This document shows, in pieces, positions 56,632 to 64,000 of a stretch of DNA of 64,000 nt. The notes under the pieces are model-generated. The model saw nothing but the letters and a program-made list of their open reading frames with translations, was not told the origin of the DNA and searched no databases. The position numbers were made by a program, and so were the translations under genes. Within the stretch, counting starts at the first letter, position 1. The number at the start of each line of letters is the position of its first letter. The stretch comes from Thermoplasmata archaeon (GTDB taxonomy: Archaea > Thermoplasmatota > Thermoplasmata > Lutacidiplasmatales > UBA184), in contig DAHXNZ010000005.1 of assembly GCA_027365105.1 (NCBI GenBank), forward strand, positions 1-64,000. Direction: 5' to 3'.

Positions 56632-59600
56632 ATGGATTCGTCGCAACGGGAGTGGTGGCACCGTCACGGGTGGACCATCGGCCTGCTGGTCACCGCCTTC
56701 GGCCTCGCCATGGCCATCCGGACCATCTTCAACGTCCCGGTCCTGGAGGAGTTCGGGAACCTCTACGTCTACGCGGGCGGCTCCGACTCCTACTACCACT
56801 CGCGGGTGATGACCTATATCATCCTCAACCACACCAACCTGATCCTCGACCCGCTCCTCAAGTATCCGTTTGGGGCAATCAACCCCCGGGAGCCGCTGTT
56901 CGACTGGATGAACGCGATCCTCGGTCTCGTTTTCGCCCCGTTCTTCGGGGGCAACGCGAACGTGGCGGGCGCCTTCTTCCTGAACATCCAGGGCCCTCTC
57001 TGGGCCGCCCTCTCCGTCTTTCCGGTCTACCTGATCGGGAAGGAGGTCTCCTCGCGCCGGATGGGTCTCATCGCCGCGATGATCTTCCCGTTCTTCCCGG
57101 CCAGCATCGACTCGTCGACCCTGGGCTACGGAAACTATCTCTCGTTCTATACCTTCGTGATCCTGATTACCGTCTACGCCTACATTCGGACCCTCAAGGC
57201 CACCGGCACGCGACGCTGGGTCGTGAGCTACCGGCAGCCACGGGAGATCGGGCGCGGGCTCAAGGCGTTCCTGCGGGAGGAACGGATGGCCGTCAAGTGG
57301 GCCGTGTTCACCGGGGTCTGCTTCGGTGCCCTCGCGCTCTCCTGGCAGGGCTACACCTACTTCGTCGCGGTCGTGGCCATCTTTCTGACGGTCGGGTTCA
57401 TCATCGAACGGATCCGCCACGTCGATATGTTCGGGACGTACGTGGTCACTCTCATCGTCGGGATCATCGGGTTCCCGATGGCCTTCCCCTACTACATCGT
57501 CCAGCACGAGTTCGCCGGCTGGTTCGACCTTCCGTTGCTCCTGTTCTTCGGAGCCCTGTTGCTGCTGCTCCCGTTCATGTTCATGCGGGACGTCCCATGG
57601 GTCTTTTCAGTCCCCGCCCTGATCGGGACCTACGTGGCCGGCGCGCTGGTCCTGGCCATCTTTCTGCCCAACTTCTTCATCAATATTGTCACGGGGCAGG
57701 GCTACTTCGTCAAGACCCTGATCTACTCCACGGTCGCCGAAGCCCAGGCGCCGTCGCTGGACCAGCTCGTGATCGGGTATGGCCTCGTCACATTCTACCT
57801 GGCCCTGGTCGGGGTCGCCCTCTACGCGTGGGGCTGGATCCGGGCGCGGTATTCCCGGATCGGCCTCGTCTTCCTCGTCTTCGGGGTCCTCTCGATCTAC
57901 CTCCCGATCTCGGCGTCCAAGTTCTTCCTCATCGGGGCCCCGGGGTTCGCCCTCCTGGCCGCCGAGACCCTTCGGCGGGCGATCGACTATGCCGGTTATC
58001 CCGAACTGCGCCGGACCGTGACCCACCTCTCGGATACCCGCAGCCAGTTTTCGGCGTTCCGGAAGGCGCTCAAGCCCCGCCACATCGCAATCCTGCTGAT
58101 TGTGGTCGGCCTGCTCCTGCCGAACATCTGGATCTCCATCGATGCGGGGATCCCGGGCAACACCAAGACCCAGCTTTCCGAGCAGGTCTACAACACCCTG
58201 CCCCCAGGACTCCAGCCGACCACCTCCTCCGCCTCCCAGAACATCTTCGGGGCGGCCGGCACCGAGCTCGACACGCCGAATCAGTATGACTCTGCCATGT
58301 ACAGTTGGCTGGGAACGCAGGATACCCAGTTACCGATCCAGGACCGACCGGCCTTCATCAGTTGGTGGGATTACGGGTTCCAAGAGATGGATCAGGGGCA
58401 GCACCCGGTCGTGGCCGACAACTTCCAGAACGGGATCGACCCGGGGGGGCAGTTCCTTCTGGCTCAAAACGAGTCGATCGCGATCGGAGTCCTGACGACG
58501 GCTCTCTTGTTTGCCGAAATGACGAAGACCGGCGGGCACACCCTGCCCGCCGCGCTGGCCGAAACGCTGCAGCGGGACGGGATTGATGTGGCCGAACTGA
58601 CCCACCTCCTGGCCGATACATCGGCCGACTTCCGGACCGTGGTCAACAACCCCGGAAAATACCTTCCGGTCAACCCCTCCACGATGACCCTGGACAATGC
58701 GATGTACTTTGCGGTCTCCTACTTCCTGGCCGACTCCCTCCCGCTCTCCGGGGTCGCCCAGGTCTACAACGACGTGCAGGCATTCACCGGCTGGACGATC
58801 CGGTACGCCATGACCGACATGCGTCTCTTTCCGTTTTCGGGGTCCGACACCGGGATCTTCTACGCCCCGGCCGATCTCGTCGGCCGGGTCGTCAACTCGG
58901 TCGGCGTCCCGACGACGTTCTTCAATGTGACGGTGCTCGGAACCGATGGCAACACCTACCCTCTTGGCCAGTTGCCCGCGAATGTCGGCGCGGTCCAGTA
59001 CAACATCAACTACTTCGCTCCATTCTACAAGTCGATGATCTATCGGACTTACATCGGCTACAACGGCACCGATGTGGGCCTCTCCGGCGGCATCCCCGGC
59101 CTGTCCGGAGCCGCCGCCAGCTATCCGATCGAACCGGGCTGGATGATGCAGCACTTCCAGGTCGTCTATCAGACCGCCTACTACTGCCCCTCCAAGACGG
59201 AGGCCCAGACCAACTCGAACTGCTTCACCGCGATGAACAAGCCCACGGCGGTGAGCTTGGCGAACAAGACCGGCGGGGTGACCGACCTGACTGCGAATTC
59301 GTACTTCAACGGCGGAGGAGCGATGCTCGAGTACTACCCCGGCCAGACGATCCTCGGTCGGGTTGTCCTCCCCGACGGTCAGCCGGTTCCCGGAGCCCGG
59401 GTGACCATTTTCGACAGCTGGGGGATCCCCCACATGACCGTCACCACCGGCCCGGACGGATCCTTCTCCCTCGTGGCCCCCCCGGGGAACGACACCCTCA
59501 ACATCACCACCGGGAGCTTTGACCCCTACACCCAGCAGGACTCCTTGAGCCTCAAGCGCGTCCCCCTCGACATTCCCGATGCCGTCGGCCTGAGCCTCAA

Positions 59601-62600
59601 CGCGCCTCCCCGGCCGCTGACCGTGACGCTCGGCGCCGGTCGGGTCCAGGGGTTCGTCTACTGGAACTCCGCCAACAACTCGACCTACATCCCCACCACC
59701 GATGCCGTGATCCCGGGCGCCCAGGTGGTCCTCTGGGGAGGAAACAATACGACCCGGCTCAGTCAGGTGACCGATGCCAGCGGATCGTTTGACTTCACGA
59801 GCGTGCCCCCCGGCAACTACAATCTGAACATCCTCTACGACGGCCAGAACTACACGGAGGCCACCCGGTTCGTCGGAAACGGGTCCACCGTCAATGCGAC
59901 GACCGGTCTTCAATCGGCCAGCATCCGGGGCACCGTGTTGCTGAACGGGGTGGCTCCGGGCATCGGTTCCACCGTCACCCTCGGCAACCGGTCGGGCGTC
60001 GTCGCCACGACCACGGCCGGCACCAATGGCGCCTACAGCTTCAGCAACCTCGGGCCGGGAAACTACACCGTCCGCGCCGTCTCGGCCACGGTCTCGGGGT
60101 TCCAGTCGGCCGGGGTCCCGATCGAGATCCAGACCCCCGGCCAGTCGATCTCTCAGAACCTGACGGAGGTGGAGTATCAGAGCGTTGCGCTGCAGGTCCT
60201 GGCGGCGGGAGCACCGGCGGCTCACACGGCGGTCCGGTTCACCCTCCTGCCCTCGTTCGCCAACGCCTCGGCGTCGGTTCTCAGCCTTCAGGAAGGAGCC
60301 GCCAACAACTCCACGACGCTGTTTACCGGGAGCAACGGGGTCGTTCATGCCAGCCTGCCCGTCGGGAACTATTCCGTCTACGCCCTGACCACGGTCCAGG
60401 GGGTGCCCTATTCGGGGTTCACGTCGATCTATCCCTCGGTTTCCGGGAGCCTGACCACCCTCTTCCCCCCGCTGACGCTCGCCCCATCGGTCACGGTCCA
60501 CGGCACCGTCGTCCTTTCGGGGCCGATCTCGAATACGACGCGCACTTTGGTCGAGTTCTACAGCGGCCAGGGCGGCGAGGTTTCGACCTGGGTCCCGCCG
60601 AACTCCACTTCCTTTTCGCTATCGGTCCCCGCCGGGCCGTACACGGTCGTCGCCTGGCAGGGTTCCTCGAATCCTACTTCGACCTTGTACGCCACGATGC
60701 TGGCCTACAACACCTCCTCCGGAGCGCCGTTGACGTTGGCTCCGGTACCCACCCTGCGCTTCTCGTTCACGGTCGGGCAGTCCGCCTCCAACTCGACGGT
60801 CGTCGTTCCCGCTCCGCGCGCCGCCATCACCATCTCAGCGGGAGCCGCCTCGGTGTTTACGCGGGCCACGACCGGGGGCCAGGTCACCGGATACATTCCG
60901 TCGGTCCTGCCCTCGGGCACGACCTACTGTGTGTCGGCGGCCTCCTTCGCCTTCAACGCGTCCCAGCGCTGCGGGTTGAGCCCCTCGGAGCTCTCGGAGC
61001 TCACGGACCTCCCGATGACGTTGACCCCGGTGCCCGTGTCCCTTTCGGTCGTCGGGCTCCCCTCGGGCACCCCGGTCCAGGTGAACCTCACCGCGGAGAG
61101 TTCCACGGCCGTCAGCCTCACCCTGACCGGGGGACCCACCTTCCAGTTCCTGGCGGCTCCGGGCGACTACGGCGTCGGAGCCCGGGCCCAGGTCGGACCG
61201 GTCACAGTGTATCTCCCCCCGGAGACCTACACGACCACCATCGCTCCCGGCGCCCAACAGGTGACTTTGACCCTCCTCGTCGTCCCTCAGATCAACACCA
61301 CCGGGCGTCTCATCCTGCCGGCGGGCCTTAGCCCGTCCAATGTCACGGTTGAGCTCTCCTCCCCGCTGGTCAACGTCACCGTCAACGGAACCCAGTTCCT
61401 CAACGGATTCTATGCGGGCACCGGCAACTATTCGGTCCTGGCGATCGGGCGGTTGAACGGCACTCCGTATTCGACCCTGGCCAACATCACCGTGGGGAGC
61501 AACGGTCGGATTTCCGGACCCCTCAACCTGACCGCCGGGGGAGCGTCGGTGAGCGGCTCGCTGACGACGCTGACGGGCGGACTGGTCAATGCCACCACGT
61601 CCATCCTGTTCACGGCACCGAGCGGCGTGAACGTCCGAGTCTCCGCCAGCAACGGCCAGTATTCCACCATCCTGCCGTCACCGGGCGTCTATCAGGCGAG
61701 GGTCAACGCCACCCTCCAGGTTCCGACGGCCAACGGTACCACCGCTGTGGTCTACTCGACGGCCCCGGGCTACCAGTGCACGGTTTCGAACAGTTCTGCC
61801 CAGTGCAATATCCCGCTCGTGAGTCGGGCGTTGCTGGTCCCGGTCAACCTGACCCTGACCACCCTCGGGGCTCCCGGACCTGTCGCGGGAACGGTACGCC
61901 TGATCAACCTCAACGACACCGCGTTGGCACCGATCGTGCTCACGACCTCGACGGGCCGGCTTTCGGTCCCTCTGGAGCCGGGGGTCTACTCCGTCTACGC
62001 CAACAGCTCGTCGGTCGGCCAGCCCCTCGCCCGCTTCCAGTACGAGTCGGTCTTCAGTTCCGGGGTTTCGAACATCAGCCTTTCCCTCCGGCCCGCCTGG
62101 GTCGATCTTATTCAGATCCACTCTCCGTCCAAGCTCGGGTCCAGCCTGACGGGCGCCCAACTCAAGGTCGAGGATTCGATGGGCCGGAGCGTAGTCTTTC
62201 CCCTGGTTTCCATGAACTCCTCGCTCGCGGTCGCCCTCCCTCCGGGGAGCTACACGATCTCGGCATCGGCGGTAGGGTCCCCCTACGGAGCCGCGGTCAA
62301 CGCGACCGCATCGGCCCAGGTTCAGATCGTTTCGGGGAACCAAGCCACCCTGCTGACCTTGAGTTATCGGTTTACCGACTCCGTGGTCGGCCAGATCGTG
62401 GGCCCGAGTTCCGTGACGCTCCCGTACTCGGGCGGGAACGCGTCCTTCGGCTACGCCTTCACCAGCCTGTCGAACCAGCCGCTTTCATTGACCCTGGTCG
62501 GAACTCCCTCCTACTGGGGATTCCACTTTTCGGCCGCCAACGTGACCCTCGGGGTAAGCGGCTCGGCACGGACGGTATCGGGGGAAGTGACGATCACGGT

Positions 62601-63225
62601 GCCGTCAGGCACCCCGGTCGCCCACCCGGCCGTGTATCTGCAGGCCCAGTTCGCCAATGGAACGACCGAAGCCAGCATCTCCCCCACGATTGTCATCGCC
62701 CCGCACTCGGCGGCGAAGATCGGGCCCCTCCCGTCGGTGGCCCCCCAGGTCGGCCCGACCCGGGCGGTCCTGGCCCTGTACGTCGCGAACATTGGGAACC
62801 AGCCGGAGAACGTCACGGCCAACATCGCGAACCTGGGCCACTTGGCTCTGCTGGGGTGGAGGGCCAACTTCCTCAACGCGGGCCGAGTCGTGACCGCTCC
62901 CATCTATCTCAACACCGGGGCGAACCTCACCCTCGATGTCAACCTCACGGCCGTCGGCCCGGCCTCCCGCCTGCCTCAGTCGGTCCAGGTTTCAATCACG
63001 GTGGCCTCGACCGGGGTCCAACACTCGCTGACGCTCGCGGTACCGACCGCGGCGGTGGTGGTGGGCGCCCCCAATGCGACCGTGATCGGGCCCTCGATCG
63101 GGACTCCTACGACCCCGCTTCCGTCCTGGGTGATTCCGGTGGTCTCCTTCATCCCGGCCCTGGCGCTCGTCGTGGGGGTCCTCACCTACCAGTGGAACCG
63201 GACCCGCCGATGGAGCCGCCGATGA
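56632..63225 (+). CDS. aglB: Giant AglB/STT3 oligosaccharyltransferase with a repeat-rich extracytoplasmic region
   Basis: A 2197-residue protein. Residues 1 to about 505 carry about 13 membrane segments of the STT3 catalytic core, with the first acidic motif GGSDSYYH and SSTLGYGNYLSF. The acceptor-binding WWDYG motif is at residues 578-582, so the protein should N-glycosylate Asn-X-Ser/Thr sites from a dolichol-type donor. The soluble C-terminal domain runs to about residue 890. From about residue 900 a chain of carboxypeptidase-regulatory/Ig-like repeats (GRVVLPDGQPVPGARVTIFD, GTVLLNGVAPGIGSTVTLGN) with many sequons extends to a last membrane helix (VIPVVSFIPALALVVGVLTY) and a basic cytosolic end. 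Known AglB proteins are about 600-1000 residues. ATGA overlap links it to the next gene. Confidence 0.9.
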   Translation: MDSSQREWWHRHGWTIGLLVTAFGLAMAIRTIFNVPVLEEFGNLYVYAGGSDSYYHSRVMTYIILNHTNLILDPLLKYPFGAINPREPLFDWMNAILGLVFAPFFGGNANVAGAFFLNIQGPLWAALSVFPVYLIGKEVSSRRMGLIAAMIFPFFPASIDSSTLGYGNYLSFYTFVILITVYAYIRTLKATGTRRWVVSYRQPREIGRGLKAFLREERMAVKWAVFTGVCFGALALSWQGYTYFVAVVAIFLTVGFIIERIRHVDMFGTYVVTLIVGIIGFPMAFPYYIVQHEFAGWFDLPLLLFFGALLLLLPFMFMRDVPWVFSVPALIGTYVAGALVLAIFLPNFFINIVTGQGYFVKTLIYSTVAEAQAPSLDQLVIGYGLVTFYLALVGVALYAWGWIRARYSRIGLVFLVFGVLSIYLPISASKFFLIGAPGFALLAAETLRRAIDYAGYPELRRTVTHLSDTRSQFSAFRKALKPRHIAILLIVVGLLLPNIWISIDAGIPGNTKTQLSEQVYNTLPPGLQPTTSSASQNIFGAAGTELDTPNQYDSAMYSWLGTQDTQLPIQDRPAFISWWDYGFQEMDQGQHPVVADNFQNGIDPGGQFLLAQNESIAIGVLTTALLFAEMTKTGGHTLPAALAETLQRDGIDVAELTHLLADTSADFRTVVNNPGKYLPVNPSTMTLDNAMYFAVSYFLADSLPLSGVAQVYNDVQAFTGWTIRYAMTDMRLFPFSGSDTGIFYAPADLVGRVVNSVGVPTTFFNVTVLGTDGNTYPLGQLPANVGAVQYNINYFAPFYKSMIYRTYIGYNGTDVGLSGGIPGLSGAAASYPIEPGWMMQHFQVVYQTAYYCPSKTEAQTNSNCFTAMNKPTAVSLANKTGGVTDLTANSYFNGGGAMLEYYPGQTILGRVVLPDGQPVPGARVTIFDSWGIPHMTVTTGPDGSFSLVAPPGNDTLNITTGSFDPYTQQDSLSLKRVPLDIPDAVGLSLNAPPRPLTVTLGAGRVQGFVYWNSANNSTYIPTTDAVIPGAQVVLWGGNNTTRLSQVTDASGSFDFTSVPPGNYNLNILYDGQNYTEATRFVGNGSTVNATTGLQSASIRGTVLLNGVAPGIGSTVTLGNRSGVVATTTAGTNGAYSFSNLGPGNYTVRAVSATVSGFQSAGVPIEIQTPGQSISQNLTEVEYQSVALQVLAAGAPAAHTAVRFTLLPSFANASASVLSLQEGAANNSTTLFTGSNGVVHASLPVGNYSVYALTTVQGVPYSGFTSIYPSVSGSLTTLFPPLTLAPSVTVHGTVVLSGPISNTTRTLVEFYSGQGGEVSTWVPPNSTSFSLSVPAGPYTVVAWQGSSNPTSTLYATMLAYNTSSGAPLTLAPVPTLRFSFTVGQSASNSTVVVPAPRAAITISAGAASVFTRATTGGQVTGYIPSVLPSGTTYCVSAASFAFNASQRCGLSPSELSELTDLPMTLTPVPVSLSVVGLPSGTPVQVNLTAESSTAVSLTLTGGPTFQFLAAPGDYGVGARAQVGPVTVYLPPETYTTTIAPGAQQVTLTLLVVPQINTTGRLILPAGLSPSNVTVELSSPLVNVTVNGTQFLNGFYAGTGNYSVLAIGRLNGTPYSTLANITVGSNGRISGPLNLTAGGASVSGSLTTLTGGLVNATTSILFTAPSGVNVRVSASNGQYSTILPSPGVYQARVNATLQVPTANGTTAVVYSTAPGYQCTVSNSSAQCNIPLVSRALLVPVNLTLTTLGAPGPVAGTVRLINLNDTALAPIVLTTSTGRLSVPLEPGVYSVYANSSSVGQPLARFQYESVFSSGVSNISLSLRPAWVDLIQIHSPSKLGSSLTGAQLKVEDSMGRSVVFPLVSMNSSLAVALPPGSYTISASAVGSPYGAAVNATASAQVQIVSGNQATLLTLSYRFTDSVVGQIVGPSSVTLPYSGGNASFGYAFTSLSNQPLSLTLVGTPSYWGFHFSAANVTLGVSGSARTVSGEVTITVPSGTPVAHPAVYLQAQFANGTTEASISPTIVIAPHSAAKIGPLPSVAPQVGPTRAVLALYVANIGNQPENVTANIANLGHLALLGWRANFLNAGRVVTAPIYLNTGANLTLDVNLTAVGPASRLPQSVQVSITVASTGVQHSLTLAVPTAAVVVGAPNATVIGPSIGTPTTPLPSWVIPVVSFIPALALVVGVLTYQWNRTRRWSRR

Positions 63226-64000
63226 GGCGGTGGGAAACGGACCGCCTCGCCCCCGGGCTCGTCCTGCTGTTGGTCGTGGCGTTGGGCATGGCCGGCCTGG
63301 GCGTACCGTCGGCCTCGGCGGCCTCCGCTCCTCCGGCGGTCAACCTGACCGGGTATGTCCACGGGCCGAACGTCTTGGCCCTCTCGGGATCGGGAAGCTA
63401 CTTCATCAATGCGTCCGGCGGGCCGGCGGTGCTGCCCAACGGGACGGTCGCGGGGACCATCCAATACTATGCCTCGATGGCCGGCTCCAACCTGACCGGG
63501 GTCAGCTTCTTCCCGGCCAACGGCACGATCGGGCCGAAGGGACTGACGGCCAAGCTGACGGTCAACAACCTGACCCAGACCCTGGTGCTCCACCTCCTCA
63601 TCGCCTCGACCTACCAGACCCAGAACCAGTCGATCAACCTCACCGACACGGTCCGGGTCGTCCGGCCCTACGTCCTGACGGCGACCGTCGTCGCCGGAGC
63701 CCAGACGATCCTCTCGTTTGCCGCCACGGTCTCCTTGGACGGCCGGCCGGTCGGATCGGTCACCATTCCGACCCTGACCCCCCACCAAACCTATGCCTTG
63801 ACCTTCGACTATCCCACCTTGGGACTCTCCTCGGGCTGGCACACGTTCACGATCTCGGTCACCCACGCCCACGGCCTGGTCGAGTTCGCCGGCGGGGCGC
63901 AGACCTACTCCCAGTCGTTTTACATCCCGCCCGCGCCGGTCAACTACACCATCTGGTACATCGCAGGGATTGCCGCGTTCTTCGGGGCCATCTTTATATT
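63222..64000 (+). CDS. Secreted, sequon-rich membrane-anchored protein (3' end beyond the window)
   Basis: At least 259 residues; no stop before the window edge. A signal peptide follows RRWETDRLAPG (LVLLLVVALGMAGLGVPSASA), then a beta-rich external part with many Asn-X-Ser/Thr sites (VNLTGYVHG, FINASGG, LPNGTVAG, NNLTQTL). A membrane segment begins at YTIWYIAGIAAFFGAIF at the edge. ATGA overlap with aglB suggests coupled translation, and it may be a substrate or partner of the glycosylation enzyme. Family not recognised. Confidence 0.8.
   Translation, partial: MRRWETDRLAPGLVLLLVVALGMAGLGVPSASAASAPPAVNLTGYVHGPNVLALSGSGSYFINASGGPAVLPNGTVAGTIQYYASMAGSNLTGVSFFPANGTIGPKGLTAKLTVNNLTQTLVLHLLIASTYQTQNQSINLTDTVRVVRPYVLTATVVAGAQTILSFAATVSLDGRPVGSVTIPTLTPHQTYALTFDYPTLGLSSGWHTFTISVTHAHGLVEFAGGAQTYSQSFYIPPAPVNYTIWYIAGIAAFFGAIFI

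Follow-up and report, generated by a model that had tools for sequence, protein, structure and literature searches.

A class-wide AglB homologue of Thermoplasmata with a beta-sandwich arm, a second membrane anchor and a coupled partner gene: a possible two-component oligosaccharyltransferase

Known oligosaccharyltransferases and the locus studied here

Archaeal oligosaccharyltransferases (OSTs) are described as single-subunit enzymes, and the AglB of A. fulgidus (AfAglB; PDB 5gmy and 7e9s), a long form, has 868 residues (PMC8342417). Among prokaryotes, Asgard and TACK archaea have been reported to carry homologues of OST and TRAP accessory subunits (PMC10307638, PMC11417166). Here we consider an aglB locus near the end of a 64,000-nucleotide stretch of DNA (the window; positions 1 to 64,000 of the forward strand of contig DAHXNZ010000005.1, assembly GCA_027365105.1) from an archaeon of the class Thermoplasmata. 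An open reading frame at 56632-63225 (+) starts with ATG and encodes 2197 residues in one frame with no internal stop. Unlike AfAglB, the protein has about 1200 extra residues of beta domains, a second membrane anchor and a coupled partner gene. We regard it as rather probable, though well short of certain, that the AglB of this class and its partner form one complex, a two-component OST with an extracytoplasmic scaffold that would position acceptors or an export channel. The architecture is not described in the literature that we searched, where most subscription journals fall outside coverage.

A long AglB in a single frame

We assign the frame to AglB because TIGR04154 (archaeo_STT3, NCBIfam) covers residues 18-809 at E = 5e-62, with 210 bits against a subfamily cut-off of 450 bits, and because the class profile (A1) aligns with about 485 residues of the membrane region of AfAglB (residues 3-487 of that protein, PDB 5gmy) at E = 1.3e-39; the Pfam STT3 match, at 21.5 bits, falls below its curated cut-off of 24.5. 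The N-terminal membrane region spans residues ~1-510 (56632..58161, +), and in a simple hydropathy scan the window protein shows 8 peaks within its first 560 residues and its relatives show 8-12, the reference AglB/STT3 proteins having 13 transmembrane (TM) helices. The catalytic globular domain follows at residues ~511-895 (58162..59316, +), as placed by domain matches, its motif and the profile alignment.

Next comes a first CarboxypepD_reg-like domain at residues ~896-985 (59317..59586, +), which is matched by PF13620 in 35/35 members and is as well conserved as the catalytic core. It probably belongs to AglB proper as a peripheral domain, judging from this conservation profile; AglB_L1 matches it in 1 of the 35 members only (E = 0.048), and the junction profile did not align it to AfAglB, so its identity as a peripheral domain is something that we infer. 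Since the domain is probably AglB's own, the added arm would start near residue 986 and run for about 1200 residues. The first-pass annotation, which had only the sequence of the window before it, was right to see a beta-repeat extension at the C-terminal end of AglB, and its figures (a start near residue 890 and ~1300 residues) are corrected accordingly.

The long frame is not a peculiarity of one assembly. In the window's family an AglB match occurs in 95 of 101 genomes, with an open frame that is mostly near 2200 residues, and in the class Thermoplasmata in 238 of 250 genomes and 84 of 85 genera, where frames of ~1830-2560 residues are the rule; shorter frames exist in the class, and those covered by a partial inspection end at contig ends. 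These matches indicate that the long, armed AglB is the form of the enzyme in the class as a whole and not special to this genome, and the similar fusions that the first-pass annotation proposed to look for are thus abundant. The source assembly (1.83 Mb, one AglB match, completeness 97.5%) is in 201 contigs, which could raise the suspicion that aglB had been joined by mistake to the gene of a surface protein. We give that explanation next to no probability: dozens of independent genomes, some of them single-contig, have the frame open in the same way, and codons are under constraint to either side of the junction, so that relatives, as sequenced, have already refuted it, and the fusion in one frame is real. 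The only family AglB match listed with an in-frame stop (one TAG; L006, G067:C34) lies on a 3905-base contig, where a sequencing error is possible. Frames of ~3000-3300 residues are common in families f45 and f53; four loci of these families (L202-L205) have AglB proteins of ~3050-3180 residues, among the longest, and further arm-like domains are found in 3/4 of them.

The arm and its second anchor

Beyond residue 985 there are about 12 beta-sandwich domains, a count that is our reading of conserved P-G-x-Y and N-x-G-N signatures and not the output of a domain parser. The first part of the arm (residues ~986-1912; 59587..62367, +) consists of about ten tandem prealbumin/CarboxypepD_reg-like domains with the P-G-x-Y signature, supported by the AlphaFold model and by Pfam, and the second (residues ~1913-2150; 62368..63081, +) of two NEW3-type, immunoglobulin (Ig)-like domains with N-x-G-N, recognized by their signatures, by the model and by NPCBM_assoc/NEW3 matches in 6/40 members. 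A C-terminal TM helix at residues ~2167-2192 (63130..63207, +), where hydropathy peaks at residue 2167 and the model also has a helix, is followed by a basic tail, RTRRWSRR. Modelling of residues 998-2197 by AlphaFold from a 50-sequence alignment, a check that had been suggested at the outset, predicts an all-beta chain of tandem sandwiches ending in that helix; with a mean pLDDT (local confidence) of 81 and a pTM (global confidence) of 0.45, one can trust the folds of single domains but not how they are placed relative to one another.

This arrangement is held constant while the sequence diverges. When the window protein is aligned with 40 relatives, one from each of 40 class genomes, the arm is collinear and nearly gapless (gap fraction per 50-residue bin at most 0.16, except for one bin at 0.31), although identity to the window protein drops to 12-23% past residue 1200. 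Arm length from residue 986 ranges from 1052 to 1265 residues, with a coefficient of variation of 0.040 as compared with 0.024 for the core, and a C-terminal TM helix is called in 39/40 relatives, the exception (L079) having none at the threshold used; a chain tethered to the membrane at both ends, as first proposed, is supported. Against the nearest relative, whose core is 96% identical, the ratio of nonsynonymous to synonymous substitution rates (dN/dS) is 0.03 in the core, 0.08-0.17 in the arm and 0.16 in the partner, values from which the arm is seen to be under purifying selection.

If the arm served as an adhesin-like stalk, or as an extension that is fused to AglB and binds polysaccharide, in line with the first-pass annotation, the types of domain found would come as no surprise: CarboxypepD_reg (three stretches), CarbopepD_reg_2, SpaA and SdrD_B all match inside residues 906-1175, CarboxypepD_reg, SpaA and SdrD_B are common in surface adhesins, and pilins are among the structural matches of the arm. 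The number of repeats in adhesin stalks is usually variable, however, and here the length (coefficient of variation 4%) and the order of the domains are kept throughout the class. The arm ends in a membrane anchor and not in a free tip; its tail, a C-terminus of the form TPLPSWVIP...TRRWSRR, has no LPXTG of the kind looked for in sortase-anchored MSCRAMM proteins and pilins; and its gene is invariably coupled to that of the partner. A stalk is thus an unlikely reading, and of the first account of this protein it is the fusion, the tethered beta arm and its probable glycosylation that remain.

A coupled partner gene

What we consider the strongest clue to function, and an element absent from the first-pass account, is the gene that follows. 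Its start codon overlaps the stop of aglB by 4 bp (ATGA, 63222..63225, +), and it runs from 63222 to the window's end at 64000 and on to contig position 64043 (+), encoding 273 residues with a signal peptide, two Ig-like/CARDB domains and one TM helix; the model has two beta-sandwich domains at pLDDT 90. In jackhmmer searches a homologue lies directly 3' of aglB on the same strand in 92/92 class loci with at least 500 bp downstream, a set in which some genomes are counted through two collections, so that independent cases are fewer, and 48 of the 92 keep the same -4 offset. The pairing is not matched by the surroundings: five other neighbours in the window (LeuB-like, thiolase, DUF35-like and two genes further downstream) recur in 0/34 loci that have 3 kb or more to each side, in which the same single-sequence search finds the partner in 21 and the partner profile in all 34. 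The pair is also present in L218 and L219, which are diverged f8 genomes from within the class, and beyond the class in L211, L212 and L230.

Pfam CARDB matches 45/46 partner proteins, and the second domain of the partner is CARDB-like. An hhalign comparison aligns the end of the arm with the partner over 152 columns (97% probability, E = 3e-11), so that the two may share Ig-like ancestry. By structure the partner comes closest to Caf1M/FimC-type pilus chaperones, and this over a single domain (Z 11.1, 97 residues aligned). Many partner proteins (L118-L197) carry a cytoplasmic tail with tryptophan (for example PKWKK or RRPW), which the window copy does not have.

A fusion is seen in another lineage of the phylum. 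The AglB frame of L228 (family f41), 2620 residues long, ends in a partner-like module and a TM helix (E = 5e-19); the search of that locus yielded no partner gene apart from it. Weaker fused matches occur in L208, L209, L214 and L204 (E = 3e-8 to 4e-5); because the matching part is CARDB-like, we count only L228 as strong support from fusion. The L228 addition also suggests that gene boundaries here are fluid, and this, with the arm's own C-terminal anchor, would suit a polyprotein from which, once made, the C-terminal part is released to act as a type I surface protein in its own right. Arm and core are never separate genes in the class loci inspected, and no cleavage signal was noticed, though no systematic search for one was made; we take cleavage to be quite improbable.

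A possible extracytoplasmic scaffold

In the Thermoplasmata form of AglB, the membrane and catalytic part of the enzyme continues outside the membrane as an arm of about 12 domains, fixed in number and order, which re-enters the membrane through the second anchor. The coupled downstream gene supplies a type I membrane protein that is small and has two Ig-like domains. We propose that the two proteins associate as one complex, in which arm and partner would make up an extracytoplasmic frame beside the active site. Such a frame might keep emerging acceptor chains, or the channel through which proteins are exported, in position for glycosylation, and the complex might for this purpose lie at the translocon.

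Three points weigh against this. AglB frames of only ~1130-1430 residues with a few Ig-like domains occur in other lineages of the phylum (L206, L207, L213, L215-L217), where no C-terminal TM helix was called and no partner was found nearby, so OST function in itself does not call for the arm. A conserved gene pair can also mean no more than co-regulation. The weaker fusions, moreover, could be independent acquisitions, CARDB being a common domain.

The arrangement that we propose would resemble the multi-subunit OSTs of eukaryotes and Asgard archaea in combining a catalytic STT3/AglB with non-catalytic beta-sandwich membrane proteins; Ost1, Wbp1 and Swp1 are absent among the Pfam matches listed, that is, 25 of 38 families for the partner and 25 of 47 for the arm. 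The partner is like TRAP beta and CARDB-type proteins in its signal peptide, Ig-like domains and single TM helix, and unlike TRAP beta in having two ectodomains; a search at E up to 0.1 finds TRAP_beta (PF05753) in 2 of 46 partner proteins, the window copy not among them, with a best E of 0.01. The arm is like NOMO2, of the BOS complex in the eukaryotic multipass translocon, in being a large array of beta-sandwiches, and differs from it in forming one chain with the OST. Searched against the PDB, the arm profile has NOMO2 as its top sequence match (E = 2e-35), which is reached by the family profile only, since phmmer with the single window arm finds nothing at E = 0.1.

We dropped the PDB match as proof of a relationship, for a control family, surface proteins with CarboxypepD_reg repeats from the archaeal family of the window, also finds NOMO2 first (E = 2e-19). 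This control family (G000:C168:35970-41699 (-), a 2118-residue CarboxypepD_reg-repeat frame with a hydrophobic C-terminus; also L229 and L232) has homologues in 37 of the 101 family genomes, often several per genome. Pfam NOMO_5th matches 31/40 arms (best 6e-18 for the whole arm, summed over repeats) as against 2/25 controls (best 2e-4). Across the 250 class genomes five NOMO_5th hits reach E = 0.001, none of them above the Pfam cut-off, and all five lie in frames of 2116-2225 residues whose contig and strand, where compared, agree with AglB. For the window protein NOMO_3rd scores 16.6 bits, below the NOMO cut-off of 27. Structure searches of the arm with Foldseek and VIA-align return generic beta-sandwich proteins, the best at Z 11.6 with a root mean square deviation of 19 A, and NOMO2 at rank 34 (Z 8.6, 153 residues aligned). 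These comparisons are suggestive of an affinity of the arm to NOMO-type domains, not of membership in NOMO.

A bolder version of the scaffold idea would give Thermoplasmatota an OST of several subunits whose NOMO/TRAP-like scaffold is linked to protein export. It could be anciently related to the OST-translocon frame of eukaryotes, or the same solution could have been invented independently; we think this bolder version unlikely as matters stand. If the two-component proposal holds, a multi-part glycosylation machine would exist, or have arisen again, in archaea beyond Asgard and TACK. Glycosylated pili and archaella have been imaged in the cultured Thermoplasmatales Cuniculiplasma and Oxyplasma (PMC12448462), and cultured archaea such as these would make the two-component OST idea testable.

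Sequons and the probable glycosylation of the arm

The repeats had been noted as rich in sequons, and the counts bear this out: residues 986-2150 hold 45 N-X-S/T, where shuffling gives an expectation of 15.4 and the reversed S/T-x-N occurs 11 times, so that the arm appears to be under selection for the motif. The core has 5 sequons (4.5 expected) and four cytosolic neighbours 0-2 (0.7-1.7 expected). Over 41 species the arms hold 1375 forward and 668 reversed motifs, and 40 of the 41 exceed expectation, with a mean ratio of 2.2. Since the partner ectodomain (8 sequons, 2.0 expected) and an unrelated surface protein of the same genome (56, 20.7 expected) share the enrichment, it marks exposed proteins in general. 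The pattern suggests that the lineage has a working N-glycosylation pathway, of which the arm need not be the main acceptor, and the arm itself is probably glycosylated.

The high count in 40 of the 41 species would also be expected if the arm were a glycan-carrying shield, AglB glycosylating its own domains and so adding to the glycoprotein coat in a group in which some archaea are without an S-layer. The enrichment seen equally in the partner ectodomain and the unrelated surface protein speaks against this, as does the one exception (L078; 7 sequons, 7.1 expected), which keeps the same architecture, and a shield would leave both the fixed number of domains and the partner unexplained. We consider it unlikely as the reason for the arm. 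Glycosylation of its own repeats by the enzyme, as originally suggested, is plausible, as a secondary matter and not as the chief role.

Catalytic motifs

Most of the catalytic motifs are in place. SWWDYGF stands at residues 577-583 of the window protein, the WWDYG motif being present in all 45 family loci aligned there, and the first DXD (GGSD) and TIXE (YSTVAEAQ) motifs are intact. The metal ligands of AfAglB are D47, D161 and H163 (PMC8342417). At the second DXD site, where AfAglB has DHH (with D161 and H163) and most class relatives have ADHD (ADHDAF), the window protein reads GYGNYL (GYGNYLSF, 57124..57147, +). Its family differs from AfAglB there too: among the family loci aligned at this position, the twelve most frequent readings account for 40 loci, of which 39 are A/G-N-Y and one is FGYADYQSY. 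By these alignments the family of the window has lost the second DXD metal motif. Because the motif is replaced, we call the window protein an AglB homologue, and that it is active we infer from the selection for sequons. Other subclades have readings of their own at this site, namely GGYD in f27, GLFD in f31 and GRMH in f19.

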